Origin: Patiria pectinifera
Lineage: Eukaryota > Echinodermata > Asteroidea > Valvatida > Asterinidae
Length of the DNA: 64,000 nucleotides
Direction of reading: 5' to 3'
NCBI GenBank assembly: GCA_029964075.1
Contig: CM057147.1
Coordinates: forward strand, 26,619,513-26,683,512
Position numbers and translations under genes: made by a program. Positions within the stretch are counted from its first letter, which is position 1, and each line of letters opens with the position of its first letter. The notes beneath the pieces were generated by a model. That model was not told the origin of the DNA, ran no database searches, and saw only the letters and a program-made list of their open reading frames with translations. Below are positions 20,201 through 59,200 of the stretch, in pieces.

Positions 20201-23200
20201 GTCCCAGCACGTTATTGCTGAAGCGCTTCCTTTTGCATAAAAAGGGCCAAAATCCACACTCCAAAATTTTTATTTTTAGGTTAGGGGAGCTACTACTATA
20301 ACTCCAGCCCAACGTTTTTGATTTTTGCAATTGACTGAAAAGCAGTACATCTGAAACTAAGACCCAATCCGAAACGGGGGTTTTGTCAGTGGCTACGGCT
20401 GCAGCTACAAATATCACGTGAGGATCGTGATGGCGCGCGGTTGAGCGTCCAATTAGCCAGGCTGTCGTACGTGGCTGGCCCGCCTGCCTTTATACCCGAG
20501 TCGATCCGGTTGAGCTACTCGAACGCACCCAATATATTATTTTGATGATGTAGATACATGTACATGTGCTTGGATATTGGGAAGTAGATGTACATGTACA
20601 TGTTGTAGCTATGGTTTGTGTCTCATGACCAGACAGTCTGGGGTTCAAATCCAGCTGTGGACCACGTGTTGTGCCCTTGGGCAAGCCACTTCACCGCACT
20701 TGCTTTTTACCACCCATGAGTTTTGGGTACTGGCATTAGCTGGGGAGTAACCTTCATTCAGCCAACATCCCATCCAGGAGGAATAGAAGTATTCTCAGTC
20801 ATTTTACACCAAGGAATCTAAAGATAAACACTGGCATGATGAACTCTATTGCCTCAAGAAAAACCTGGACTTACTTTTAAATCAAATTTGGAGTAACTGT
20901 CAGGTACTTTATTCACTATTATCTTTCCATTGCTAAATAGGCAGCAAAATCTTGACAATCATCTACTGCACTTATTACCCAAGACTGTATCTCCCCGTGA
21001 AACACTTTGTTTGAATACGTCCACAACTCTGGAGGCGTAATGTCCATTTCTAGGGAAATCGCTTATAAAAAATCTCCACCTGCGGTTAAACTCTTGAGAG
21101 ACTTTCTTTTTAAAGCCGTGAAGTGATCAGTGTCTTCGTAGATGGGATTTGACCACGGAAGGAAACAAGAGTGTAAACCAGTGCTGCGTGGGTAACTGTG
21201 CCAAGGCTTGCCAAGGGATGATAGTCTTAACATCCTGACTGACGATGACATGATCATCATCTGGCCAGGCCACAATGAAATCATGTATCTCCCCAACCAA
21301 TCTACTAAAAAAAATTTACAAAATTTGTACACATTGAAGAAACTTAATGCGAATCACAATTTTTGCAAGCTTTGGTTTTAATTTCGTTTATAAATATGTT
21401 CCATTTTAGAAAGTTGCAAGCATGATAGCTTGTTTTTATTAAAAGTCCAAAGTGCATAACCATTGATATAATCAGAGTATTATTTAAGGGGAAAAAATAT
21501 GGTTTCCCAAAGTTTGTCTAGTCTTGAGGGGTATCGGTATCTTACTGGAAGTGGAAGTGTTCAAGTAATACATTTGTTTTGTATGTGGAGACATGCACCT
21601 TTACATTGATAATTTAAAACAAAAAAGTGTGGTTTCCCTTTGCTTTCAAGGCTTCAGTGTATCACACAGTGAATGGCATACAGAAATTAAGTGGTGTTCT
21701 TTTCAATAACATTTCTGACAGCAATTACTATTTATAAGATGGAATTTGCGTCAGGGTGATGTACCGGTAAATCAATATTACTAGTACTATTAGACCAACT
21801 ACATACATACATTGGTTCTAACATTTCCTTTTGGTCAGAGAATTGTTGGCATTAAAAGATGGTATGTTCAATGGCATCCTGCTCTGACAAAAACCTGTGG
21901 TCAGATAGTGTTTGATTGTTCCCCTTTCAAAGAACTCACCTGGTCTGTGGTCATGCAGTGAACTTGGGGTCATTGGATGTCAGTAAAGGTCATGGTTCTC
22001 ATCACAGAGAGAGAGAGCCACTCTGACAGTGGCTGATTCACTATGAAATACCCCTTGCTGCTGATCAGGACTCTTGCCTGGTAGGGTTTAGCTCGGTTTC
22101 CGTTCCAAACAGCATGAGCCTGTTTGGGGTAAACGCCCAGCATTTGGGTTTCAAATTCAGTGAATGAATACACTCATGTACATGTATGTGGGGGGGGGGG
22201 GCATTGGGCACAGTTAGATTTGCAGACTTTTGAAAAATTTGTGTTCTTTTGAGATTTTACCAAAGTGACTTTGAGACTTTTTCTTCACTGGAGAATGTGA
22301 CTTGAGACTTGACGTTAATACAATTTGGATATCTGATTTGAGACTTGACCAGAGTGACTTGAGACTTGACCAGATTGACTTGAGACTTGACCAGAGTGAC
22401 TTGAGACTTGACTAGAGTGACGTGAGACTTGACCAGAGTGACTTGAGACTTGACCAGAGTTACTTGAGACTTGACCAGAGTGACTTGAGACTTGACCAGA
22501 GTGACTTGAGACTTGACCAGAGTGACTTGAGACTTGACCAGAGTGACTTGAGACTTGACCAAAGTGACTTGAGACTTGACCAGAGTGACTTGGGACTTGA
22601 CCAGAGTGACGTGAGACTTGACCACAGTGACTTGAGACTTGACCCCAGTGACTTGAGACTTGACCAGAGTGACTTGGGACTTGACCTGAGTGACTTGAGA
22701 CTTGAGACTTGACCAGAGTGACTTTAGACTTGACCAGAGTTAATTGAGACTTGACTGGAGTGACTTGAGACTTGACCGGAGTGACTTGAGACTTGACCAG
22801 AGTGACTTTAGACTTGACCAGAGTGACTTGAGACTTGACCAGAGTGACTTGAGACTTGACCAGAGTGACTTGAGACATGATCAGAGTGACATGAGACTTG
22901 ACACCTGACCAGAGTGATGTGCAACTTGACCAGGGTGGCTTGAGACTTGACCAAAGGTACTTGAGACTTCAGGAGAGTGACTTGAGGCTTGACCAGAGTG
23001 AATTTAGATTTTATCAGAGTACCGGTAATGCTAGACCTCTTCGGAATTACACAAGTCTTGGCCAGATTTTATTCAAAATGATTTGATGAATTTGGAGCCC
23101 TACAGAAGACACAAGACATTTACTGTGTTCACTTAATACATTTTCCTATTTTCTTTTTTGTTTGTTTAATATTTTAGGTCTTTAAACATGGACCAGGAGG

Positions 23201-26200
23201 AGAAGGAGAAGAATTTACGAGAAGACAAGGACCCTACCGCTCAGAGTCCAAACCCAAACGCACCAGTCGCAAGTGAAAATGGTAAGGCATCCCACTAAAA
23301 TATATCAGGATCTTGGGTCATTGCTCTCCCTGGCCAAAAATTATGCAGCAGGTGCTAAGGTAATGCTTGTGTGTATAAGGTTGCAAGCAGCACTTTAATG
23401 TGCACTACATAGCTACACTTTTTTTAGGAAACAAATAAACAGAGAGTATGTGCAAAATATATTGTAAATGTATGAATTTAAAAAAAGGGGGCAAAAAAAA
23501 GCCAGGAAAAAAAGGAAGTGGTCGGGACGGGAAACTGGTTTATCTTTTCACTTGGCCTTATATCAGGCAGGGTCAATGAATCTATCTAAATTTCAAATGT
23601 TTCAGTTTGATTTTACATGTATATTCATGCTAAAAATAAATGAATTTAAACTAAATAAAGCTCTTAGAAACTAAAACACGAAAAAATAAAAAGAGAGAGC
23701 CGCACGTTTTAATCCCAGCAGGACCCATTTTTCCTTCCTTGACAAATGTCCTAGGATCAAAACGTTAGGCCCTCTCACTTTTTTTTCTGATTTCTATATT
23801 ACAGGTCAATCCTGTTTAGTTAGAAGTTTGCAGCAATTGTATTCATTTTTGTAATAACAAGAACAGAAAACTGAGAATGTAAAGAAATGCAGTCGGTCGG
23901 ATTCACAATATTAATGGCCTTATTTTGTCACTTTATCACCGTGTTTGAGTCTCCGGAATTGATTTTTCATTGTGGACCCTGCCTTTAATGCAAACACTAT
24001 CACATGACAGCAGTACACAGTATAACACCTCATCAACAGATCCTGTGTCTTGATTGGCCGAGAGTGAGCCACATGTTATTCGTTGTCTCTCGCTATCTTG
24101 CTGTGCACAGCCAAAAAGACTATACGCATAGCAACCAAGAAGATACATGTACATAAAAAAAACCCCAGAATTTATACATTTGTAAAACAAATATTGACTG
24201 CTTTAACTCATGGAACATTCTATTTTCAGAATTCTATAGTAAAACTAACCTCCCTCAGCATTCTATATTTCACCTCAGGAAAAATGCTCCATGGATCACC
24301 TCGGGAGGCTATTTTTACTATGCCACTTGAAACAGTCAATATTTGTATAATATGTACTGCATTGTTCACTGCTGTCATGTGATAACGCAGTGCTGCACAC
24401 ATGTACACTGGCGTGCAAAAGTATTTACGCACCTGTTAAACAAATTGATTTTCTCTGTTTTGTCATGTAAACCAATAAAATATTTCAATAAAAGTCATAT
24501 CTGTGTCTTGGGTGGTTTATTTAATTCAAACAATTCATATTTCATTAAAACAATTAGCTTTTATGAGTCCAGAATGACGATTAATTTGACGTCACTAGTT
24601 TCTTCTGTGTACAAAGTCAATGGGGCATCACAAAATCCAAGATGGCGGCGCCCATAGAACGCAAAAAAATACAAAAAGTTAAGGCCAAGTAAAAGCTCCC
24701 CCAGCATTTATTACAGCTTGGCACCGCCAGCTCATTGATATTAACAGATTGGCAAGGATCTGATAATCCAGGCCATACCAAATCCACTGAAGAATTTGGA
24801 ACAAATTGGCTTGATTCCGTGGCCAAACTTGGCGATGGAGTTGCCTTTTCAGCTCATTCCACAAATTCTTCGGCGGATTGGCAGGTCAGGGCTTGGAGCT
24901 GGCTATTCCATTACCTGCAAACTCCCAGCTGCCCCCCATTTCTTGAATAAAATCTGGGGTTGAGTCGGCTAGATATTCTTCTGTAAACAAAGCGATATGT
25001 GGCTGTGCATTGCCCTGCTGAAATCGGAATTTCGGGCCGATCAAATCATGATCAAACAACGGGCAGAAGCGATTAGAATGTTCGCGGACAATCATCAACG
25101 AAACCACTCCACCAGCACGCTGCAGGTCACCGACGCCTGCTGATATGCCCAAGCGACCCTAGACCATTGTTCCCGAACCTCGTGCTTGCACAGAAAGTGC
25201 CACGCAGTCTTTTTATTTCCCGAAGACACACCTCTCTCCACAGCAGGCATGGACGCCCCTTTTTGTTGATCATTGACCTGACCTTTGAGTGGCATCTTGG
25301 GGCTTTCAGAAAGCATTCACATGCAAATTAACCATCCCTTATAAGGCCTGGGGATTCTAGTTTCAATATTTATGAAGGGTGACGACGATTTGACCTGCTA
25401 AATATTCATTTAACGGCCCGGAAAACAGCGCGCCTTTTCCCCCCATTGGTTTAAATGCCAGCGTAATGATATTCATGAGCTCATGAATACGTAATGAGGC
25501 AATTCAAGATGGCGGTTTAACGTTGTCGCGAAGTGGCGTCGCGAAGTGGCAAGTTTTATCCATGAAGGAAATGATGTTTAGTGTTAGAAAGTTGAATATT
25601 ACTGACTAAAATAATGACACAAGACACAGGTTTGAAAATGTATTGACCATCCATGATATTTTCAAGTCAAATTACAAGTTGAAAATCGTACAGCTGGTGC
25701 GTAAATACTTTTGCACGCTAGTGTACATTTCCACCACAGCTGCCTTCGTAGATTCGCAGTATTCCCTCCGATCTGTTTCCTCGCCGTCATCCTTGTTTAC
25801 TTGTGTCAGTGACAACTGACTTCCATTTTCACTTTGTATTTTAAACTAGTTGACAGTGCCTTGTTTTTGTGTAAATATTGTCACGGCTAGTAATTGCGTT
25901 ACAGGCAATATTGTCTACTCTTCCTGAATTTATTGCTGATGAATTGAAATTGAAGAATGTAATGCATTTTTGGGAAATTTTGTTTTGTACCCGGTACATT
26001 GTATTAAAATGTGCAAACAATTTTATGTTGCTCTCTATCAGATCAGTGTTTCAAGCACTTGCATACATGTAGAATACATTTTCTTTTGGCAGGATAAGCA
26101 TATCAAAAATCATGTTGACTATCTGAGTTTAAAAACAAGATTCTTGAATATTGTTTTTTTTTCATCGGAATATACAGCATTCACTGAGCTAAAAGTTCAT

Positions 26201-29200
26201 CAGGTATGTTGTTAAGCACCCTTCATTAGATATATTGAGCACTTGAAACGAAAAAAATCACGCTTGACAAATGATGCACTCTACCGGTACCTTTAACATG
26301 TACATCTATACCATGCAAAAGACCTTGTATTGATAGGGTCACGGAGTATGGTACATGTTGTGCTGTAGTGTACACACACAAAATGTACATGTACATAACT
26401 CTATATTGCGTTGGACTTCCTGTGAATATTGTTGTAGACAAATGTAGGGTAGGCAGGGCTGTGCAGTACATGTACGTGTTCACATCATCGATCGTGGACG
26501 TCCTATTGTCCCTCTTTTGTTTGTACTCTAACTTTTTAGGAAGACTCCCATAGGGTTTGTACACGACCCCAATCGCAGACGTATTCTGGGAATTGTGGAC
26601 GACATTGTTCTCTTTTGTTCTCTGGAATTTTAGTCCACGGTTTGAATAGATAAACACGCCCACACATACTGGTACATACATACCGGTACATGTACACATA
26701 CATACAGTGGAATCTCGATAAGTCCAACCTCAGGGGAATTGGCTCAAATTTTGAGTTAAGCAGAGTTTTGAGTTATCCAATGGATTTGGCCAAAAAAAAA
26801 AGTCTCTGGCTTCTGGTATGCGCGCGCGTCGCCGTAGCCATGCGCGTCGACAAAATGAAAAAGTTTTTTTTTCAATGAAAGTTGATGTCTCAAAACCGCC
26901 AAACTCACTGGTTTGACTGGAATCCTACTGCTGCACAATTTTAACGTGTTTTTAGATGGGGTTATGATTGACAATAAGCTTTACATGTATGTGGCCTCTC
27001 TGGACTCCCGTATATTTGCACTAAGTTTAGTCGGGCACCATTTGCAGTCATCAGCCGACATTTGAAGCAAAACAGTGGGGTAAAAAAAAAAAACGCGTCA
27101 CCGCACCACTTTTTGGACAAGCTCTGTACCAGAAACCGGAGAAATTTATTTTTGTGGCCTTTTCTATTCAACAACGATAGACAGGAATAAGTTTTTACTT
27201 TGAGTTAGAAGGGGTTTTGAGTTAACAGGTTGTGACTTATCAAGATTTCACTGTACTTATAGTACACGTATGAGTACTACATACATGTACATTTGTACCT
27301 GTTCATCAACCTGTTTAGAAACAGGTTGATGAAGTGTTCATACATATAACATCAACATGGGCATGGTAAAAAATAGACTGGTCACACCACAGTTTGTGTC
27401 GTGCGCATGCCTTCGGCTATTTGGGTTTCCTGATGAAATACAGCCTTACATCAACAAAAACTCTATTAAGAAAGGATGGCACCATATTGGAGTCACATGT
27501 GCCGCTAGGGATACGTCAAAGCAGTTCTATGATGAGGGATAACAGATATTGCTTCCACTCAATTAGCGTTCATGTACACGTATTCCTTTCGAGATGCGTG
27601 CCCCATACTCTTAAAAACATGTTTTCTCTTTAGTAATAAGTTTTCTTTCAATTTGTTTGGTTTTATATTTTGGGGAAAAAAGTGTACTTTAAAAAAGTAA
27701 AAACAACCACCCCCCCCCCCATATTTGGTGTCTATCGTCTTGAAAGTACTTAAAAGTTATAAGCAGAATCAAGTCTTGTGTAAAATAGTAATTGATGATC
27801 TCTAAGCATACAGTACCTTTCTCTATCCTTGTAGATGTTTATCCATCATTTGCTTTTCATTTGTTTTTCAATTTCATGATCCTACCTACCGGTACATGTA
27901 TATGCTTTTAGGGCTTATGGATGGTCAGGGTTTATCCTTAAGTCCCTAACCCCCTAGGACCTTTTGGCTAGGAACCATCCCCAATCCTGCAACATCCTCC
28001 AATTTCCTTTAAGTAAGAATTGGATTCAACCTCAATACTCCAAAATCATCTGTTATTTTTCTTGATTTTGTTCAGTGGAGGGGTGACCGTAATTACCTCC
28101 ATCCTTCCAACAATCACTTTAACCTATTATTTTTATAACTCAAAGCCATGATATTCTTTTGGTTTCCCACAGTTCATTAGACACAACTCAAGCCGTGATA
28201 TTCTCTTGTCTTAATTACTATAACTCAAAGCCACAATATTCTCTTGTTTCCCACAGTTCATAGTATAGACACAACTCAAGCCATGATATTCTCTTGTCTT
28301 ACTATAACTCAAATCCATGATATTCTCTTGTTTCCCACAGTTCATAGTATAGACACAACTCAAGCCATGATATTCTCTTGTCTTACTGTAACTCAAAGCC
28401 ATGATATTTTCTTGTTTCCCACAGCCATGATATTCTCTTGTCTTAATTACTATAACTCAAGGCCATGATATTCTCTTGTTCCCACAGTTTATAGTATAGA
28501 CACAACTCAAGCCATGATATTCTCTTGTCTTACTATAACTCAAAGCCATGATATTCTCTTGTTTCCCACAGTTCATAGTATAGACACAACTCAAGCCATG
28601 ATACTCTCTTGTCTAACTATAACTCAAAGCCATGATATTCTCTTGTTTCCCACAGTTCATAGTATAGACACAACTCAAGCCATGTTTCTGCCCATTGGAG
28701 CTTCCATCTCCCTGCTCGTCATGTTCTTCTTCTTCGACTCCATGCAAATGGTCTTCGCTGTTTGCACAGCAGGTTGGTGTACATACCCTCAATCAATTCG
28801 TTGGCTTTTTTTTAATCTTTCTCGGGAGACTTTCGATTTCTGATGGACAGGTCACTGGGTCAAGTTCAGTCAGTGGCCATAGGCTACTGTTGTAGAAGTG
28901 TCTGGGTCCCAGTTGCTGTAAAGAAAAATGGCTCAGTAAATGTTGCGAGCAATTTTAATAAAGTTCCTATTTGTATATCAAATCATCACAAAGTCATCTT
29001 GAGTCAATCATAAGTTCACGGTAAAGTCAAGCAACAAGCTATCCATGAATACGAACTGTGACAAAGGAAGTCCTTTGTTATTGTCTTTGTAACTTGGTGC
29101 TTTGACTTGTGATCTGACTTGATTAAAACTCCAATGTAATACTCCTCAAGGTTGCAGGCTTAATAGGCTCGACATTGCCTACGACGGCCAAATTACGATT

Positions 29201-32200
29201 TGCATGGCCTCAATTGTTTTGCCATTACCGCATTTTGTGGGCCATGAACTTGAGGGTTTGTCCAAAAAAAAAGGAAGGGTGGAAGCCGTGAACAGGACTG
29301 CAAGCTCGTATTTCTGTGAAATTTGGATGAAATTTGGATGAAATTTGGATGAAATTTGGATGAAATTAGGCCCTTAAATTGCTCTATTTTGCAACGGAGC
29401 GCAGGCATCATTATTCAAAATGGTGATGGGCTTCAGGACCACTACTTTTAGGGGTGATCATCTTTGGATGGAGTTTTGTCTCAAAAATTCAGTAATATAT
29501 CCCCCCCCCAAGAAATGAACACAAAATGAAAGATGATGAAAAAAGGCTTTAATTTGATGTGTGTCTCAAACACCTTGGAGGGTTGTGAATATTTTTCCTG
29601 AATTTCGGAAGTGGCCATACATACCCTCCCTATACACTCCACATCTTGAATGTTGGGTTGCGTTCTATACCCCTTTAATAAGCACATCAGCACGGCATCA
29701 TGTGATCTGCCATGTGACCTTGTACACTATACTGCCCTATCCCTGTCCCATATAATAAAGCTGCAAACAGTGTTGGCTTATCTGTAAAAAGTTAAGTGGT
29801 TTTTAAAGGTTGTAAAACATGCAATATTCAGTCACAGGAGATCAAAATCTTTATTATCACTATCGTTCGAATTGTCTTTATGCATTATTAAGGCAGTCGA
29901 ACCCAGTCCATTTTTTAAACAGTGGAACTCTAACAGCAAGCACATTACATGTACAATATTTCAAAGGAAATAGAGCATGTGCAAAAGGGAATTGAGCTGA
30001 TGACGAATGGTTCACCCTAAAGGGAACTATTTGAAGCAAAAAAAAATTGTTTAGGCCTGCACGAAAATCTGATTATTTGAAATAAGATCATGTGTTTCAT
30101 TTTCTAATTTTCTACTCTGTTCGTTTTATTTATCCACACAGTATTAGCTACTGTAGCCTTTGCTTTTCTGCTGTTGCCGATGTGCCAGTATTTATTAAGG
30201 CCTTGCTCCAACGGTACAAAGTAAGTGAAGATTTCTGTAAATTAATATGATCTGTTTTTCCCCCTTTATTTTTCCTGGCTTAATATTAGCATACTTACAG
30301 TACATGCATGTCCCCAAAATAGTGTCCGTCTGACTGTTTTTGAAATAACTACAAAAACTTGAAGTCGATTTTAATATTTTTTTAGTGTGCAGATATTTCC
30401 TATCCTTGGCCCAAAGCCCTATGAGTTTCAGTTAATTTCAGTCACGCATTACTGCGCAATGGTCAATTATTCACAACAACATTTTTATACACTGTGACCA
30501 AGTTCCTTGCCTTAATCAATTTCAATGCTGTGTTGTGTGTAAATTGTGTAAAATCCTGGGTGTTGTGGAAAAAAGGCTGAAATTGGTTTGGGATTGGAAT
30601 CATTTGCCCTTGAGCATTAAAGTGAAGTTTTGCCATGATGACTGATAGCCAGGCAAATGATTCCCATCCCAACTGCAGCCCTTTACACAACATCCAAGAT
30701 TTTACGCAGCTTGCATAACACAGCACTGAAATTGATTAAGGCAAGGAACTTGGTCACAGGGTCCAAAAATGTTGTTGTGATCAATTTACAAATTGTGTAG
30801 CACTGATGCATGACTGAAATTAAATGAAACTCATAGGGGTTGAGGCCAAGGATAAGGAGTATCTGCACATCAAAACATTTTCAAAATTGACTACATGGTT
30901 TTGTAGTTATTTCATAAATAGTCAGACGGACACTTTTTGGGGGACATATCACTTTGTGCATGAATGTTTACCGATGATGTCACCCGTAAATGTTCGCCAT
31001 AAAATCCCTGTAGGTCAGAAATTAGACTGGACACCTGATCGCACAAAATGTAGAAGACAGGCAAGCACTCTCAGGGTTGATGAAATTGTATTGGTTGCGA
31101 TGCAGCTTGTCAATTGTGCTACAGTCGGATTGGACTTTACATTCAAGAACGCATACACACACAGCCCAGTCCCAACCTTGCAAAGTTTGCGGACGCTTAC
31201 ATGAGTTGACCTCTCGTCAGAGGTCATAAGGACACCAGCCCTCGCCGTTCCCAGACTCTACATGTGTATATCCCAGTGAGAGGTATCGGATGTTCGCACA
31301 TACATGTACGTGTACAGTAACGAACATTGCGGGATCCACAGAAAATGTTCGTAATAGTGATCGTTCGGTATAGCGATTTTAAGCTGCCGGTGCTCCGGTA
31401 CTCACTTTTCAATAAATGGTGCCCTGCATAACTTCACCCTGCATGCCCTGGTAGCTACTGAAAGACGACTTTGAACATGTGCCGACTATTGAATTATGTA
31501 ATTACACAGTTTTGAGCTTACTCCCTACATCGATGGGTGGCTTTCCCCTTCTATGCCTTGGGAAATAATAGCCACTTGTCGCTCTTCTGTTGATGGTTTT
31601 CAACAACAATGTTCTGTTGGTTTTGTACGCAAAAATCGGGAGCCAAGGACGATGTTCGGTATAGCCGAATGTTCGGTATAGCGGTGTTCAGTATACGACG
31701 TTCCACTGTACTACCCAAATGGTTGACCGAGATCTGAATCCTCCTGACATCTCCCCGACCTTACCGTCCACCCACGTCCCACCTACCGTGCCCCCATCCA
31801 CACCCTTCTCACACCTTGCCTCATTAACGATGAAGCCCCCCCCCCCCCCCAATCCTAGATGAGACCGACCAGTCTTTTGATAATTGATGGTTGACCAGCC
31901 CTCTGGCCCGATCCGGTTACCTACATATTCAACCATCCGTGCACTCCCTTGATGAGTCCTGTGACCGAATTGCATGTTTATTTCACATTTCAGGGTCCCT
32001 GATAACTTGTGAAGATTATGAAACCATAAGTGGTGTTGAGCACCCGTGCTATAATCATATTGGCCCGGGGAACATGATTATCTATCTGCAATCCCTCAGG
32101 AAATTTTGGTCTGACAGGTTAAATTTCTTTATCCAGTTTTGGCATTAGGGCATCTCTTTTTATTGCTGTGGTTCTCATTCCCGACCGACCCTATTTTGGG

Positions 32201-44200: not shown

Positions 44201-47200
44201 ATCGGTAGTGAAAGGAGAGGGAAAAAATTGACTTGAATATGAAATAAAAATAGGAAAAAAAAGGGAACATGCATTTTTAAATTTCATAAATCTTGGTTAA
44301 AAGTGGATGTGTGTACAACTCATTTGTTTCTTGGTGCATGTATATGGAATCAGTAGTGAAGTGGGAGAAAAACAAATGAAAATTGACAAAAAGATGAATT
44401 AAAAATGCAGAAAAATGAGGGAATATGTTTCAGTTTGTTTTGTAGATTGGTGGTAAAATTTCAAAGCTGTCTTCGGGCCTTGCTACATACATGTAGTGTA
44501 CATGGCCTCAACAGTTTTGGACCAGAAATGAGCCAAAAGCTTAATATTGTACATGTAAACATGGACATGTACAAGTATGCAAATGTACATGTACGTGTGC
44601 AGTGCATTTACATTTATTTAGATGTCTCTAATGTCCAGACTACGCCGATGATTCCAGCTTTTTTTCTCTTCTACTGTAGCAAAGTGAAGCAACAACGTAA
44701 AGTGCATTTGTTTAATGAGTGTCTAAACCCTTGTTGAGATGGCTGTATTGCATTTTAATGACGTGGTCCCAAGTGACTGCTGGTAATTTTCATTCCGTTA
44801 AAATTAACCGAAGCGTGGCTTATTGACGCGTGCTTAATAAAAGGTTGGAAGGTCTGTAAGCTATTGCATTTGAAGTGAACATTTTTTAAAGATTTTTTGT
44901 TACAATATTTCAAAATTCTTCCTCTTAAACAAAATTAATAAATAAATAAAATTGTGGACCGAAAATACCATGAAAAGAAATTAATAAATAAAGCCATTTA
45001 AAAAAAACCAAATTAAAACAAAACAAAACAAAACAAAAGCAAAAGGCAAAAGCAAAAGACAAACACAAAAAACCTTCCATATAAAATTAGACATTAGTGA
45101 ACAAATACATGTCGAGAACATTGATCTATAATGAATGAGAGTTGAAAACATGATCTACATGTATGATGACTGATAAAGAAAAATAATCAATAATTGCATG
45201 TTCAAAAATTATGTCCAGTTGAATTGTGATGATTTTACCATAGATTCATAGATCAATAGTGAGTCATATTTAAATTATTGAATTCCTTTTTTTTTAAAGT
45301 GGTTTTTGGTTTTGTTTGTTATGATAATGAACATTACACACACACCACTTGTTTCCATATGTTCCTTTGTCACTCCATACAAGTACGTGCAAGCTGTGAA
45401 AGGAAAATTGGGTTTGTAAACTTGGTAACAAAACACTGTTGTTGAAACATGAAGTTCATGGCTGTACTATAGAGAGAGGCTGTGTTTTCGTTCTGGCTGG
45501 GCAAATATAATGGTTCTGCGACTGTCGCTGAATAAACCGCCTATTATTGGAACTGGTCCAAGGTTACGGTACATACACGTACATGTATTTCAGCCATCGG
45601 TTTCAGTCAAGAGAACAAGCGAAAGACCGGAAGAGGAAGAATTGTGTTTTAATACAGATAATTGGATTGCGAGGATTGGACACTGTCATGAGGGGGGAGG
45701 GGGGAGGGTTTTGCATGTGAACAATTTCCTATAGTACATGTACATGTAGGTACCGTGTAAGAAAGGTCAAAGGCAGCCGCAGGTTTCAAGGCTATGAGCT
45801 CAGAGCGCAAACAAGAGAGAGCGCTTTTTTTTTACCGCTTTCTAAAGCCCAGTGAATAGGACACACCGTGTGAATGTACTTATTCACGCACCAAAGATGT
45901 GCATAGGATTTATTTTATTCTGAATGCACAAAGCCATAGCATCTTTGAGTGAGTCAGACGTCATCGGAATCGAGTTCGAATTTCTCACCCAGTGGTCTCC
46001 CGCAACCCTCCCTTTCTTACCGTTGAGGGGGCACTTGTGCACGGAGCCCATGGACTCAGTGCGCAAGTACCCCCTCAGTTGGTTGAAAAGAGTGAGGTGG
46101 AATTCTTGTGCTTTAATGCTGTATGCATGGCACTCATGTAAAGATGATCTGTGCACAGCATTCATAATATATTAATTGTAAGAACAGGCATGACAGTTTT
46201 CTTATTTAATAGGATTTCCAACTTTTTCTCCTTTTCTTTCCTATTATTTTCTCCATTTGTAGCATTCTGTACTGTTGACATTACACTTTGGTTAGGGGTC
46301 TGCATGACACTTTGTTCTATTTTTTTCCTGAGAGTAAAATGTGTACGTTGCACCATATGTGAACAAACCAGTTGGCCCTTGCTGTGTGTACAACACACGA
46401 AGCTTTCGTTAACCCTAACCGCCCTGAATCCTCCAAAATCCTTTTTGCAAATTGGAGGATTTTGCAGGATTGAGGTTACATGGCAAAAGTGCGTTGCGGA
46501 TTTCGGAGTACGCACTGTGTCAAGGTCTTGGGCCGGACCTTGTGTTGTTTATGCTCAGCCATGCATAAATTTAGTCCTTGATTATACTTGAAATCCTCCG
46601 CACTGCTCCAGGATGTCACTGCCTCTGCCTCAGCCTATTGACAGTCATAGCCGGAGGATTTTGCAGGATTCAGGCAGTGGTCACCCCTCCATGGACCATA
46701 TTCAAGAAATAATGGAGGAATTTGCAGGATTGAGGCTATATGCTATTTTTTCATGTGGCCAATTGGAGGATTTTGCAGGATTGAGGCTACATCCTAGCAA
46801 AAAGGCCTAGGGAGTTAGGGTTAATGGTCGCGAAGCACCCTATACTGTTCGTACGCTTGGCCTGACTACATGTACCGGGTACATTGCACATGTACAGGAT
46901 GCCAGTATGACTCAAAGAGTTTAAAATTGTTGCATTCGTACAGTGTTTATGACACATGCAGCTTTTTGGGGGGTGGTGTGGGGGGTGCTGGTGCTTGGAA
47001 GCGTGCCAAAGGAAGGGGGTTATTTTAAAATGTCATTGGGGTAAGGCTGACAACAAGTGCCGCGTTGCTACTTCTACGTCTGGACTGATCACCGCATGTA
47101 TGTTGTTTGAAGTGACGGGGGGAAAATAATGCTCTGGGAAAGAGGAAGTCATTGTATTAATAGATCACATGTAGCCTGTGCGTTGGATCTTGATCCCTTA

Positions 47201-50200
47201 GACAGGAAGTCGGTGGGGTGATACTGCATTGTGGAACACTTGGCGAAACACCCACAGGACGACAAATGAGATCCGAAAGAGACACGGAAAAGCTTGGGCT
47301 TTTGTAAATTTGTCCAATAAGGGAAGAGTGCACAATAAGCCGTTTGCGAGTAACCTATGATACCCTTTGGGATTTACATTCGAAATACATCTGGTACGCT
47401 GACTGGCTCAGAATGCTTGGCACATTTTAACTTTGAATTCTCCAGATCAAAGACACTGTTGCTAATCACATGAGTTCAGGGCAAGCTCTTGCATAGTTAC
47501 GCAAGAGACGCTCAGCACCAATACGTTGTTCATCATGGGTGAGAATGGCACAAAGACACAAGACCATGCCTGCGCTAGGTTTGCTAGCATAAGGCTTGCC
47601 CCGAATCACGTGATATAGTTGCAGTCTCTTTGGTCGGGAGAATGCAAAGTTTAAACGTGCAAAGTCAGCGTTCCAGATAATATTCTAATTTAACTCGCAA
47701 ATGGCTTATTAAACAAGCGGTATGTGTGAGTTAGGGGTGATCTCCGAAGCACCTTGTAAAACCTCATATAACTTTAAGGCACGTACCCGTTTAATAGTAT
47801 TCACAATTCGGGCATCTATGTTTGTTCAGATATATGTCCATAGATTCTGTCTGAATCCCATAGGTAGGCTCTAGCTCAGGACCGGCATTCCAGAAGCCAA
47901 ATTTATGAACAGAGGTTAAAGGGAATAGAAGTTGAAGGAAAGACAAATGTAGGAGCATATTGTTTTTCCTTATGCAAATTTTTGTAATAATATAATTTAG
48001 GATGATGATTTACACGTATTTAGAACAAAAAAATATTAACAAAGGAATGAAATGTATTGTGCCTACTATTCAAGAAACTGTGAAGGTCGAAGTTACATGT
48101 ATAATTTGTAATGTGAATCAAAAGTTATAATAAGGGAAATAATGTGCGCTTGGCCAGTTAAAAAGAACAAAAAAACTGGCTAGCGGCTGGATGCGGATAA
48201 TGTCCCAAGCCAATGCAAGGGGACAATTCCAATGATTTTGTTCAACAAGTTTTCTTCATGTTTTGTGAAACAACCATCTGGCCATGTCTATGGTACATGT
48301 ACATGTATGTGCCTCGTAGTGCTATAATAAAGTACTGCGCGATGTGGCGCAGAACGCAGCGGTGTTTTACCAACAGTTTAAAACCACCCATGTGAGGGGC
48401 TCTCGACCAATAGGAATTGGTAAACTGTCTGAGGCATTTATGGTGTCAAATATACACATTCGAGAAAATATTTATATGTTTTGTTTATGCATTTATTTCC
48501 TTTTCTGCAGCACTAGCCATGGGTCTGTGCGTCACCATGATTGCGTTTGTCCGTCTACCAAGCCTCAAAGTCTCCACGTTACTCCTCACCGGTCTACTGG
48601 TCTACGATGTCTTTTGGGTCTTCTTCTCCACATACATATTTAATGCCAACGTCATGGTCAAAGTGGCCATGAGGCCCGCTAACAACCCAGTAAGTTTTTC
48701 TTTTAATTTCGTGTCCGTGGGTCTCGTTACTATTTTCTCTTTCTGTTGTTCACTGTAACTTTTGCAAGAGTTGTAATGCCAGTGATGTTGACAGTGTCTT
48801 GGCAATGGTTGTCAATTCTTTGAAGTCCCAAAAGCCTTCCAAAAGAAATTAACTGGAGTGGGGTTTGAACCTGCGACCTCCGGATTGCCGTTCCGGTGCT
48901 CTACTAGCTGAGCTATCCAGCCCTTTGTTGGCGGTTCCCCATTTTGTTAATGTCTTTGTTCAAGGGGTGCCTAGTCAGCTTCCCTTTGTGTTTTATTTGA
49001 AAAAAATGCATTGTAAATTGACAGACACAAAATTCTCGTTATGATGGAATTTTGCATCGGGGAAAGTAAACTTGAATATAAGGTGGTGCCCTTCACCGAA
49101 ATAATTTGATAAGCTGACCCTGGCAAGCGTGGTGGTTGAGTGATTAAGATATCTGCACTTGAAAGCAGAAGGTCATAGGTTCGAGTCAAAAACCAAGTAA
49201 GCTTGTGAGTTTTTCCCTCGCAAACTCAGACAGCACAGAGTAAAGGTTCAGGGTAAAATCCATTTTCCAGTCCTTCTGATTTGAAAATCACAGGGGTGTG
49301 GAAAAAGGCACATCTGGATTTTTCTAGGTGTGTGGTTTTTCTAGGTGTGTGATTTTCTAGGTGTGTGATTCTGTGGTTCAGGGAAATTCAGGGGTGCAAT
49401 TATTCGCACTTCTCCGGAAGCTTTTAGGCGTGTGATGGCGTGGGGGTGTGATCGCACGCCTCAAATCAGAAGGACTGATTTTCAAAAGAATCTGAAAAGA
49501 CAATACACCGTTTGGTTTTACTCCAGTTGAAGCTTGCATGATTAATGTACAGGTAGAGTAGGTTTTTAGTGAGTTCAAGTGTCGACACAAATATTTGAGA
49601 AAACACTGATAACTTGCTGTGCAGGTAGCCATTCTATCTTGCAATTAGAAATAACCGGCTCATAAAAACTCAACAATGTTAGTTTCACTGTTAGGTTTAG
49701 CTGTGCTGTATTTCAGCGGCCTTCAGAACAACTCAGGAAGGGTTTTTTTTGGGAAGGAAATATTCTCTTCCCTGTACAGGATTTTTTTTTTTTTTCATGA
49801 CCGTGTAGTTGTGGCTTGAGTCACGGCATTTCCTCACAGGAATATGTGACGGAGCGCTGTTACCTCATGTACGGTGTACTTGTTGGTCTTTCTGAACAAA
49901 ATGGGTTAAAAGTCAGGGGAAAAGGTATATTTTGTTATATGGGAAAGTCATCGGAAACTGCTTTCTTTGTCCCGGGAAAGGTAATTGAAATCAGTCCATT
50001 CCACCATGGAAGAGTTGCAAGAAACAGTCGACCCTGATATGGGGAAAAAACAAAGCAATGGTTACATTAAAATGCATTTTTTTCTTTGAAGTTGCCATTG
50101 ATCTGTGGTAAATTGTCTTAAATCTTGCTGTTTTGTAGCGGGGAAACTCATGGGAATCATTACATTTCGTTATGGAAAAGGTATGGAAAATGCACGGAAA

Positions 50201-53200: not shown

Positions 53201-56200
53201 TTTTATGAGAACAAATTCAGGGGTAAGATGGGGAAGAGTCACTTTTTTTAACAAATTAATCCAATGCCGATTTGTGGGAATGGATGTTAAATGGATTTGC
53301 AAACATCAAAAAGCAAAACGACCAGATTATTATGAAATACCTTACTTGACTGTAAGTGAATAATAGTCTCAAGCATTCTGTGAAATCATGGCACCTGGTG
53401 TGCTGTCATTTTCAAGAAAAATTGAATTTTGGTATCAATTACCAATGATGGTCGGCCAACCATCATTGGGAAAAAAGTGACTTTTTTCAAATACTGTCCC
53501 TAATTTACCAAAGTTGCTTAGTCCATGTTTTGTTTGCAATTGGTTATCCATGAATGAACGGGTGCAAGCCAGCTAGTCTGGTTCCCTGACTAAACTGCTC
53601 CATTTTGTCTGTAGGGTCAGGGAACCAGACTACAAGAACAGCATTTTTTTATTGGTTTTTTTTTGGGATCTATGAACACAAAACTTAACACAGGTCACTG
53701 TAACACCAAGTCCATCCATTTCTGAAAATTACAGCAAAAGCATATGTTGTATATTCCCTTTACAAGGCATAAAAACAAATTTCTGCAATGAATAGTGCCA
53801 CCTAGTCTCTCTCTCGTATGCAGTGCTGAATCAAATGTCAAGGTCGCCGAATCAAATGTCAAGGTCGCCGAATCAAATGTCAAGGTCCATGTCCAACAGC
53901 CAACGTGTCGCAATCGGGTCACAGCTGGCTAGACGAACAATGCCACCGTCCAGTTTTCTGATTGGGCACTCGTTGACAATGTGCCTTGCGGTCTGATCAG
54001 CAGCCCCACAGTCACACTGAGGTGTTGGCTTCATATGCCACCTAGTGATATTGCAGTACAACTCAAACGTTCCCACATCCATCGTAAATCCACCAGGATG
54101 TAGCCACAGACACATGAAATTTTAAAATGTTAACGATTGATTTCTTTTCACAGAGCAGTTAATTTGTTGCAGTTTTGTGTAGTCAAGTCCATCGCTAGTA
54201 AGTGACAAGTCAGTGCACAAGTCCAGTCACATGTAAACAGCCCGGAGGAACAAGGACAAAGGAATGCGTTCGGCGCTGTTCATTTGACTTGGGAACTGAC
54301 TGACTTGTGAAGACTTGTGCAAACTTGTGATGGACTTGCGAGGGACCTGTGAGGGACTTATACAGCGTGTGTCAATAAAAATGTAGCAGTCGATCAATAA
54401 GTATTAAAAAATACTATCACTCTCATTTTTGCAAAACTTATCTATAGAGTCTGAAGGTGTAGTAAATACTCTACACAATGGTCTTGATCCCATCTCATTT
54501 GGACATTCCAGTCCAGAGATACAGCTAATTAAACGAAAGGACTTGAATTCCAAGTTGGGCCACTTTTCAGATTATCTGGTATCTAATGAAAGGCATTCGC
54601 ATACCAAGAAGGTGTGTGAATGCCTTTCATTAGATACCAGATAATCTGAAAAGTGGCCCAAACAGTTTTTGAGTGTCTCTACAAGCTTTGCCGTAACTGT
54701 TAATCAAAAGTTTCAAATCACACGAAACAAAAAAATCCTGTCAACAGTAAAGAAACACTCTATCATCTCTTGGTAAGTTTTTTACTAAAACTATTTAATG
54801 AAAATAAACGATTTAGCTTCCTCAGAATTGTTTTTCTTTGACTGCTTCATTTCTTTGAGACATGCTGTACGACTAGTGATGAACACAACCTGTAGGACTT
54901 TGGAAATAAAGTCTGATATTATTTTTACAGTTTGCATTCGTCAGTGGCTTTGGTCTGAAGCTTTTCTTGGTCTAACTCTGTTTATCCTCTGCAGCAGTGC
55001 CCAGAACGCTGGTCACTTCTCAATGCTGGGTCTCGGCGACATCGTCATGCCGGGCCTGCTCCTGTGCTTCGTCATGCGCTACGACAACTACAAGAGGCTG
55101 TTGGCCGAGGGGGGCCAGGCTGCGCCCGTCCTTGCCCCCAGCGGGTTCACCCATAGGGTCACTTACTTCCACTGCTCACTGATCGGTTATTTTGTGGGTG
55201 AGTACGCCCTCACCGGCAAAGAAAGTACAGTTGGGGGTGACCGAACGATGCCATTTTGCCTGACTGCAATTGTTTGCCGCAAAGCACGGCCACTGCGTAT
55301 ACATAGCAGTGATGTAGTGCCTTGATGCTGGGCCTTGGCCTTAAGGCTGCCTTAAGGCTGGATTTTAGGGCCTTGGCCTTGGCCTCGAGGCTTGAGGGCA
55401 AAAGCCTTGGCCTTGGCCTTGGCCTTGAGGGTTCAGGGCCTTGCAATTTTCAGTCAAGGCTCTTCAAGGCCCATAGATTTTTGCATTTTCTAGATAAATC
55501 TGTTCGAAATTTTGCTGTTACCATTTAAATCGTATTACCATGGAGGAGGGAAGCACCCTATAGATTTGTGTGTTGGGCACACATCCACTTTTGTAGCATC
55601 ACATTTTGTTACCATTGTAGTAGATTTGCTGCAAAAATATTCCGTACACTTGTGGGGCTAATGAGATGATCACTGGATGATTAATTGCATATAGATCTGA
55701 TTGGTTGTATAAAAATTATGTCTCCCTGATAAGTGCTAAAGATTTGCATGTATCTGCTTTAGATAATGCTGATATTTCTGACCATGTTGGGCCAGCAAAT
55801 AAAAATTTCCCAAATCAGTTTCTTGGATCCCCCTTTTGTTACACTTGGGAGAATTGTGTGTCAATATAGAAGTAAATCATTATTTTGTTTCGTTAAACCA
55901 TATCGAAGACCTGAACTTATACTTTAATAGATACAGTGCAGTCATAAAACGGTGTAGGCCTATGCGAGCATGTTGATTGCAATTAAAGAAATGTTGTTCT
56001 TCGTAACGAGCAATTCGTGATGATAAGGGCGGATCCAGGGGGGCCAAAAGGGGCCATGCCCCCCCCCCCCAAAAAACCCAAAACCAATTTTTTTTTATGT
56101 GACGTCGTAATAAAGGCAGGCAATGAGTACACCACCATCTTTTCCTCAAAAAACATCGGTTAAAATGGTCAGAAATTGCCTCAAATCGCACCACAGAGCA

Positions 56201-59200
56201 TCTCGAATCCAAAAAAATTTCGGGGCCCTTAAGCGGGCCCCGAAGCCCAAGCCGTAATTTTTTGACCCACTTTTTTTGGGGGGACCAAAAATTATTTGCC
56301 CCCCCCCCCCAAAATTGTGTTCTGGATCCGCCCTTGCGTGATGATGTGTGACTCATGTGACTATAATTAGTTCTATATCAGTGGTCATTTCATAAAACAG
56401 GGCCTTGGCCTTGGCCTTGAGGGTTAAGCCTTGGCCTTGGCCTCGAGGCTTGAGGGTCAAAGCCTTGGCCTTGGCCTTGGCCTTGAGGGTCAAAGCCTTG
56501 GCCTTGGCCTTGGCCTTGAGGGTCAAAGCCTTTGCTCCAACACTGGTACATAGTATAAATTCCTTGGTGTACGTGCGTCACACCATAGTCACACACAAGG
56601 AATGGTGCGCTCGCGTCAACCAGCGAAATGTATGTGTCCTGCCCATGGGACGTCATTGCTAGGTAAAAGGGCGCCCTCTTTTGTTGGCGCAGGGAGCCCC
56701 TTGGTGACTATTTCATGGAGACTGTAAGCATAAGCACAGCAAAAGGCTTACTTCGGAGGAAAAATGTGCTTAGATCAGAGGCGTAACAATAGAAATCTCC
56801 ATGCACGCACCACCATTAGCACATCCATGCCGTGAAATAGTGCTTAAGGTTAGCAAATTTGTCTGTTAAGCTAAGCACAACTTTTCTGCTAACTGTTAAG
56901 CAGCGCCGTGAAATTGGACCCATGCCCCAGTAACCACTTTCGCGGCGAAATACGCCATCTTGTTCACGGGCACAAAGAAGAACGTGTTGCTAGATGTGAG
57001 CGCGTATTGGAATGAACACATGAACAGTAGCTATTCATAAGATGGCATGAGAAGTAGTTGTAACGTTGTAACAGTGTTGTAGTCGAGTTCATCCCAAGTC
57101 TATCACAAGTACCTTCACGAGTCCAGTCACAAGCAACTAGCAAAACCGAAGGATTGCTTTTGTCATAGGTCATTGAATAGCTTGGGACTTGACTTGAAAC
57201 TGGAGGACTTGTTAGGGACTTGTGAGGACTTGTCATGGACTCAACAGCTACACTGAGTTCTGCACTATACAAACATTGAGCAGCTCAGAGTGGAATGGGA
57301 GGAATATTATCGTAAGGTAAAATCTGGACTTATCTATTGCACAAGGCGAATTGAAAAGTCCAGCTTTTACCGAGTGATAATTTTCCTCCCATTTCACAAT
57401 TTAAAGCCACTCAATATTTGTTTTATGTAACTGGCATATAGATCCTTGACATTTGATTCACAGTGAAAATGAACTTCTATTTCAAAACAAAATTAGTGGG
57501 AAATGTATTTCTGTCTTTCAAACCACCCCTTTACAAAATGTTTGAACCCAACTCCTTAGCTACTGTCTCTTGGGAACAATACGCGCAATGCTCAATGCGC
57601 ACACCAGCATGCATTTGCACACAAATACCGCGTCATGGAACAAGGATGATCCTAACTGTTGAATAGTAAATCCCATTCCCCATGGGCGAATGGGACTTTT
57701 TGAGCCCCGGCATGAATGGGAGCAATAATGAATGTCACGTGATGTGAGTTCCACCAATCAAATGACAAGGATCTGTATGTCAGTTGTATAATTTGTTATT
57801 ACCTTTGATTACATTTTCACTTGTTTCTGTAGGTCTCTTGACTGCGACAGTTTCCTCCGAGGTCTACAAGGCTGCCCAGCCCGCCCTGCTCTATCTTGTC
57901 CCATTCACTCTCCTGCCTCTGCTCCTAATGGCCTATCTCAAGGTGAGCACCAAGACATCTCTCAAGTCCAGTCCCAATCAATCATCAGTTTCACAGCAAA
58001 GCAACCGATAAGATAGATTCAACGTACTGCAAAGTGGCTGAAAGTGTGCATATACTTAACAATTGTTGACTACTGTGATGTGGGATATGACGTTTTGAAC
58101 ACCCGAGGGGCGCATAGCACCTGAGGCGAAGCTATGCACCCCGAGGGTGTTCAAAACATCATATCCCACATCACAGCAGTCAACAATTGTTGTTTTGTTA
58201 TACCTCTGTCTTGGATTCTTTGGACTTTGAAAACACAAAAACAAACAGCAGTAAACACAACAATCATGACAATCAAACGTCGACTCAAATGCATGTAGCG
58301 TACCGTGCTCGAAACAGCTGATCGTCTGCTAGTTCGCTGCTCCCACTCACGTGTGAAAACATGGTGAAAGTAGCATGGGTACCAATGGTACAAGCGTTTC
58401 ACACCATACGTACAGTACATTCAAAGTCATAGCACACCCCCTGTGGGATATCACATACGTGATGTCCCACAGGGAGTGTGCCATGACTTTTTATAAACTT
58501 TACACGTGATCGTTCTATGCCAATGAAAATACAGTATTCAAGACAGAGGTATAACAAATATATATGTATTTACTACACCTCATACATACTCATGAGCAAG
58601 AGCCAAGTGCTTACTGGTCCATTCTTCATCAAGTGCCGTAGTTTTGCTATTAACTAAGCGCGAACGTGAGGATTCACACACGGGGTAAATGCGCATGCCA
58701 GTCGACTAACATGGGTTACCTGTGCGATAGTCTACTAGGCATGTGCTCAACAAAGCAGTCGTGGGACTGTTGCACAGGGGTTGATGTGTATTTTACGCGC
58801 GAAATTTGTCTTTGCATTTGTGGTGTTGCAGTATACACAATATGCCACTTTGTTGTGCAGCCGACAGAATGAAAAGGTGAATTGAAGGTTGCATCGTGTA
58901 CTGACTCGGTCTGATAGGAGACGCAGGTATTGATGTGTCTTTCAACAGCATTTGGGCTGAATTTCAAATGGCCCAATTACTTGGCTCTTCTTATCACAGT
59001 AGAGCTGTCTCAAATAGTTTGATCATCGACCGAGTATTTGAATACATTTTTGCCGGTTTGAATATTCAAGGGAAAAAAAAGGACCCACTCACACATGACC
59101 ATTACATTATTTTTATTGTAATGTTGGGCGCTTTGTCGGTCAATCGGGGTTTCAAATAATCGAACATTATATTATTTGAAAATCGACAGCCCTGTTTCGC

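Follow-up and report, generated by a model that had tools for sequence, protein, structure and literature searches.

SPPL3 of the sea star Patiria pectinifera carries a minisatellite across the boundary between intron and exon 4, in which seven near-identical 3' splice sites follow one another in one frame. We consider this array, with a probability of roughly three in four, to be a mirage, a repeat of the kind described in lancelets, with splicing mainly or only at the last acceptor (28655), six upstream acceptors as bystanders, and no or only a slight effect on the protein.

A minisatellite across the start of SPPL3 exon 4

The array lies in a window of 64,000 nucleotides, the whole stretch of DNA that was analyzed, from an assembly of 613.5 Mb in 1020 contigs. 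The coding sequence of SPPL3 was read as ten exons between 11488 and 60226 of the window. AG precedes all ten exons, and GT follows all but the last, whose end is the stop codon. Exon 1 was looked for and not found, so that the exon numbers are those of the preliminary description and the predicted protein, 380 residues, runs from exon 2 onward. The PF04258 profile (signal peptide peptidase family) matches residues 59-368 of this protein with an E value of 1.3e-94. The motifs YD, GxGD and QPAL define the family, and in SPPL3 they appear as YDVFWV at 48603, GLGD at 55029 and QPAL at 57877. In a protein search that scored 7991 candidates and returned 3305 proteins at E<=0.001, the closest named proteins among the best 120 of the 3305 matches were SPPL3. 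The predicted protein is 95% identical to P0001 from the sea star Acanthaster planci, 84-86% identical to the proteins of a brittle star and two sea urchins, and 71% identical to chicken P0074; the single solved relative found was SPPL2A (9k92, E 2.1e-17). Protein alignment places exon 3 at 23178..23281 (donor ATG/GTAAGG) and exon 4 at 28656..28772 (donor CAG/GTTGGT), and exon reading places exon 5 at 30142..30220, all on the plus strand. The gene, exon, frame and loop assigned in the preliminary description are supported. Upstream of exon 3, an intronic 21-bp minisatellite with 32 copies (22334-23020) stops 157 bp short of the exon.

Seven CCCACAG acceptors were located on the plus strand, at 28166..28172, 28250..28256, 28334..28340, 28418..28424, 28481..28487, 28565..28571 and 28649..28655. 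They are spaced by 84, 84, 84, 63, 84 and 84 bp, and the distance of every upstream acceptor to 28655 is divisible by three, so that the positions and in-frame offsets reported earlier were recovered exactly. Tandem Repeats Finder (TRF) detected two periods, one of 84 bp (scores 460 and 453) and a higher-order one of 231 bp (score 853), which jointly cover 28134-28684 on the plus strand. The higher-order repeat suggests joint copying of units in blocks. Combining TRF with the CCCACAG positions and a unit alignment, we describe the array as seven units of the intron-exon boundary with a period of 84 bp, one of them of 63 bp. The first unit starts at 28134-28135, and the last continues into exon 4.

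Each unit contains a branch-like motif, a pyrimidine tract, CCCACAG and then the first exon bases, except that unit 4, with a length of 63 bp and 24 of the usual bases missing, is without the exon bases. The exon part common to the units is 29 nt (28656-28684), two bases of a split codon and 27 more, which agrees with the 84-bp repeat of acceptor and 27 coding bases originally described. The preliminary description had also placed TATAACTCA in every unit; it is present in six of the seven, and unit 4 reads TGTAACTCA. Units 1-6, each with its acceptor, are pairwise identical at 0.917-0.964 of aligned columns (15 pairs), and unit 7 matches them as far as exon base 29. The units differ from one another by substitutions and indels, and a repeat of this kind lies far beyond chance expectation. 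Within 28621-28684, the end of the intron (AACTCAAAGCCATG) and the start of the exon (AACTCAAGCCATG) are nearly identical, a possible seed of the first duplication. We infer that the array grew by slippage or unequal exchange, aided by this similarity.

Reading frames and splice signals of the seven acceptors

For each exon start, the frame was read from the G that ends exon 3. A start at 28173 (acceptor 1) meets TAG at 28178 and then TGA at 28196 and 28466, and starts at 28257, 28341 and 28425 (acceptors 2, 3 and 4) meet TGA at 28466. Four of the six upstream acceptors thus lead to premature stops, which the preliminary description had not mentioned; its statement on the starts at 28488 and 28572 (acceptors 5 and 6) holds, the frame staying open there and adding 56 and 28 residues, respectively. 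To see how often such a frame is open by chance, we shuffled the 55 intron-derived nucleotides of one unit 5000 times with dinucleotides kept. The shuffled units were open in 0.41 of cases, and multiplying by 1/3 for a length divisible by three gives about 0.14. Because an open, three-divisible unit would arise by chance about once in seven times, the open frame is no sign of selection, and this chance, together with the stops at 28178, 28196 and 28466, led us to reject the idea that selection has kept the array open.

The same stops could be taken to mean that acceptors 1-4 divert transcripts to nonsense-mediated decay, with the level of SPPL3 set by the number of units. Seven exons follow exon 4, so the stops would indeed be premature; however, the gene is intact in both array-bearing copies (see below), which makes dominant use of acceptors 1-4 unlikely, and we regard such a damping role as very unlikely.

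We gauged acceptor strength by pyrimidine counts and consensus matches, using the branch-site and donor consensus sequences. All seven acceptors are preceded by 13-14 pyrimidines in 17 positions, and the other acceptors of the gene by 12-15. Sites 3, 6 and 7 share the same last 23 bases, from which the other four depart by one or two changes. Between acceptors 6 and 7, identity extends over 38 nt upstream and 29 nt of exon; both have 14 of 17 pyrimidines, and two differences separate them within 60 nt upstream. In view of this identity and the equal pyrimidine content, they are inseparable by intrinsic 3'-site strength.

The clearest marks of acceptor 7 are the exon body behind it and a match to the branch site, CTAAC, at 28613..28617 on the plus strand. 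This is the sole CTRAY in 28134-28772 and is present in both copies of the locus; the matching place reads CTTAC or TTAAT before acceptors 2-6. The looser YTNAY lies within 60 nt of all seven acceptors, with CTTAC, TTAAT and TTAAC fitting before the other six. Within 60 nt upstream of the nine other acceptors of the gene, we found CTRAY at four, another YTRAY at three and neither at two. The idea that CTAAC helps acceptor 7 was formed after inspection of the data, and the branch site speaks only weakly for this acceptor. The conserved SPPL3 protein, according to the protein alignment, requires acceptor 28655. From these observations, we infer that splicing goes mainly or solely to 28655, because only acceptor 7 adjoins the exon body, perhaps with the help of CTAAC. 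The six upstream acceptors would then be bystanders with at most leaky use, the products of which would mostly undergo nonsense-mediated decay, and the effect on the SPPL3 protein would be none or slight.

Donor-like sites within the unit match at most 4 of 9 consensus positions, in comparison to 7-8 of 9 for the nine true donors of the gene. Units are therefore unlikely to serve as cassette exons, and both cassette exons and intron gain inside the array were rejected on this ground; use of an upstream acceptor would most likely merely lengthen exon 4.

Such lengthening is what the preliminary description proposed, with acceptors 5 and 6 usefully active and 56 or 28 residues placed, as the protein alignment indicates, into the loop that precedes the second membrane segment. 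The open frames of these two acceptors and the roughly equal acceptor strengths agree with it. The insert might also be borne, since the loop differs in length among species, and its hydrophobicity stays below that of a membrane segment (19-residue maximum 1.21 vs 2.23 for the next segment). However, the exon 3-4 junction was without an insert in all 11 aligned relatives (sea star, brittle star, sea urchins and others), which were drawn from the best 120 of 3305 matches, and when proteins were searched with the 56-residue insert region, seven candidates were scored and nothing emerged at E<=10. The reach of this search is limited by its small number of candidates and its need for shared words, and the database is clustered at 90%, so that the cluster of P0001 could conceal an isoform of the species itself; this cluster has eight member sequences and is the one named for a sea star among the best 120 of 3305, where many clusters are nameless. 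Considering further that the open frame is near chance expectation and that splicing is reportedly normal in the lancelet parallels, we find an isoform source unlikely. The claim that the array makes isoforms is thus not borne out, given that four of the six additional acceptors run into stops, that the seven database candidates yielded no protein with the insert and that openness has a fair chance of about one in seven, and it is weakened again by the CTAAC match before the canonical acceptor only. A switch tunable by repeat number, in which the normal form, proteases with 28 or 56 additional residues and decay were balanced by unit number and CTAAC and varied among individuals, seems decidedly unlikely. 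Most likely, the array is a harmless curiosity.

A second copy of the locus in the assembly

A second copy of the locus lies about 433 kb away with the same seven units, and the array and exon 4 differ between the copies by one base (28314). The contig at 2051-60660 of the window is flanked by two gaps of 500 N and aligns inverted, end to end with breaks, to C19:27043602-27116371, in a chain of 41 pieces that covers 48,025 of its positions. Past the second gap, the window matches 27120212-27126057 in direct sense at 97-99%. Since flipping the contig would make these matches collinear, the contig most likely represents the other haplotype, set in the wrong place and orientation, and the assembly probably holds SPPL3 twice. 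The second copy may instead be a true inverted duplication: positions 1-1550 of the window, before the first gap, had no match longer than 150 bp in C19:27035001-27126500, where collinearity gave reason to hope for one. The pattern obtained by flipping nevertheless favours the misoriented haplotig.

The copies differ at 2408 of 47,196 gap-free positions (5.1%). Around the array, the tract 27926..28791 has the one substitution at 28314, whereas its flanks have several per 100 bp. Among 46,397 sliding intervals of 800 positions, with overlapping ones set aside in the ranking, 27983-28782 is the second lowest with 1 substitution against a median of 39; the lowest, 45425-46224, has zero and the third lowest 12. 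In 45425-46273, 849 gap-free aligned positions show zero substitutions and contain none of the ten exons. This substitution-free segment is as odd as the array tract and is perhaps due to gene conversion or an assembly effect. A short interspersed repeat, some 165 bp long and recognized by own-genome matches at 27944..28110, stops 23 bp short of the array within the near-identical tract; 38 of its 40 scored own-genome matches lie at other places, with 80-87% identity. Purifying selection is an unlikely cause of the near-identical tract, since the tract includes this interspersed repeat and since the exon-free 45425-46224 has zero substitutions; better candidates are recent gene conversion, shared ancestry or assembly.

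Because the tract is nearly identical, the two copies are not independent witnesses of the unit number. Both have seven units without a length difference, and the length-variable array of the preliminary description was accordingly not seen in these non-independent copies. Tandem repeats are often misassembled, and the near-identity of the tract in copies about 5% apart elsewhere, as if the same reads had served both, would suit an array or a unit number made by assembly or polishing. On the other hand, two separately placed copies agree to within one substitution, and the mutual differences among units argue in the same direction. We thus hold an assembly artefact to be highly improbable.

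Relation to known boundary-spanning repeats

Minisatellites across intron-exon boundaries are described as mirages in lancelets, in Adh3, the globins BflGb6 and BflGb9, troponin C and PGBD5 (PMC3087553, PMC3902484). As in those cases, the SPPL3 units span the boundary, with the intron end and 29 nt of exon 4, and carry splice signals, CCCACAG and a pyrimidine tract being present in seven of seven units; the cluster ends at the authentic boundary, where the last unit continues into exon 4. In BflGb6 the 3' end of the intron and the 5' part of exon 2 are reported to be repeated (PMC3087553), just as the SPPL3 repeat joins an intron 3' end with an exon 5' part. BflGb6 haplotypes reportedly have 6 and 3 units, unlike the two non-independent SPPL3 copies with seven each, and RT-PCR is said to suggest that regular splicing persists, while the authors allow that repeats act as cryptic sites (PMC3087553). 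The mirages of Adh and troponin C reportedly yield no aberrant mRNAs, and those of PGBD5 are described as imperfect (PMC3902484). For PGBD5, the repeats reportedly led annotators to predict an insert of 57 residues, which the authors later omitted (PMC3902484), a case much like the question of the insert in SPPL3. Compared with the lancelet mirages as described, the present array differs in its gene and host, SPPL3 of a sea star, in its 84-bp unit and in having all acceptors in one frame.

Internal tandem repeats at human exon-intron boundaries are said to alter splicing patterns (De Grassi and Ciccarelli 2009, PMC2812944), and the SPPL3 minisatellite resembles them in its place. The human repeats are reported from genes of primate segmental duplications and to act via novel introns (PMC2812944), whereas the SPPL3 unit is without a good donor. 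The competing in-frame 3' splice sites also recall NAGNAG tandem acceptors (PMC2875228, PMC3250501); NAGNAG sites are described as three bases apart, while SPPL3 repeats whole acceptor regions with branch-like motifs. No boundary-spanning minisatellite in echinoderms was described among the literature matches listed, which were open-licence papers. The absence of a described parallel, claimed earlier, may hold for the SPPL3 gene family, but the same structure has been described as lancelet mirages. As far as searched, the SPPL3 mirage is new in the gene and probably new in the phylum, and it is of a known kind.

These comparisons suggest that minisatellites across such boundaries occur outside lancelets and human paralogs as well. 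The SPPL3 array is a natural competition among seven near-identical 3' splice sites, of which a single one borders on the exon body and a single one has a CTRAY branch site. As such, it suits the old question of whether the choice of a 3' splice site depends on its distance from the donor, its branch site or the exon context.
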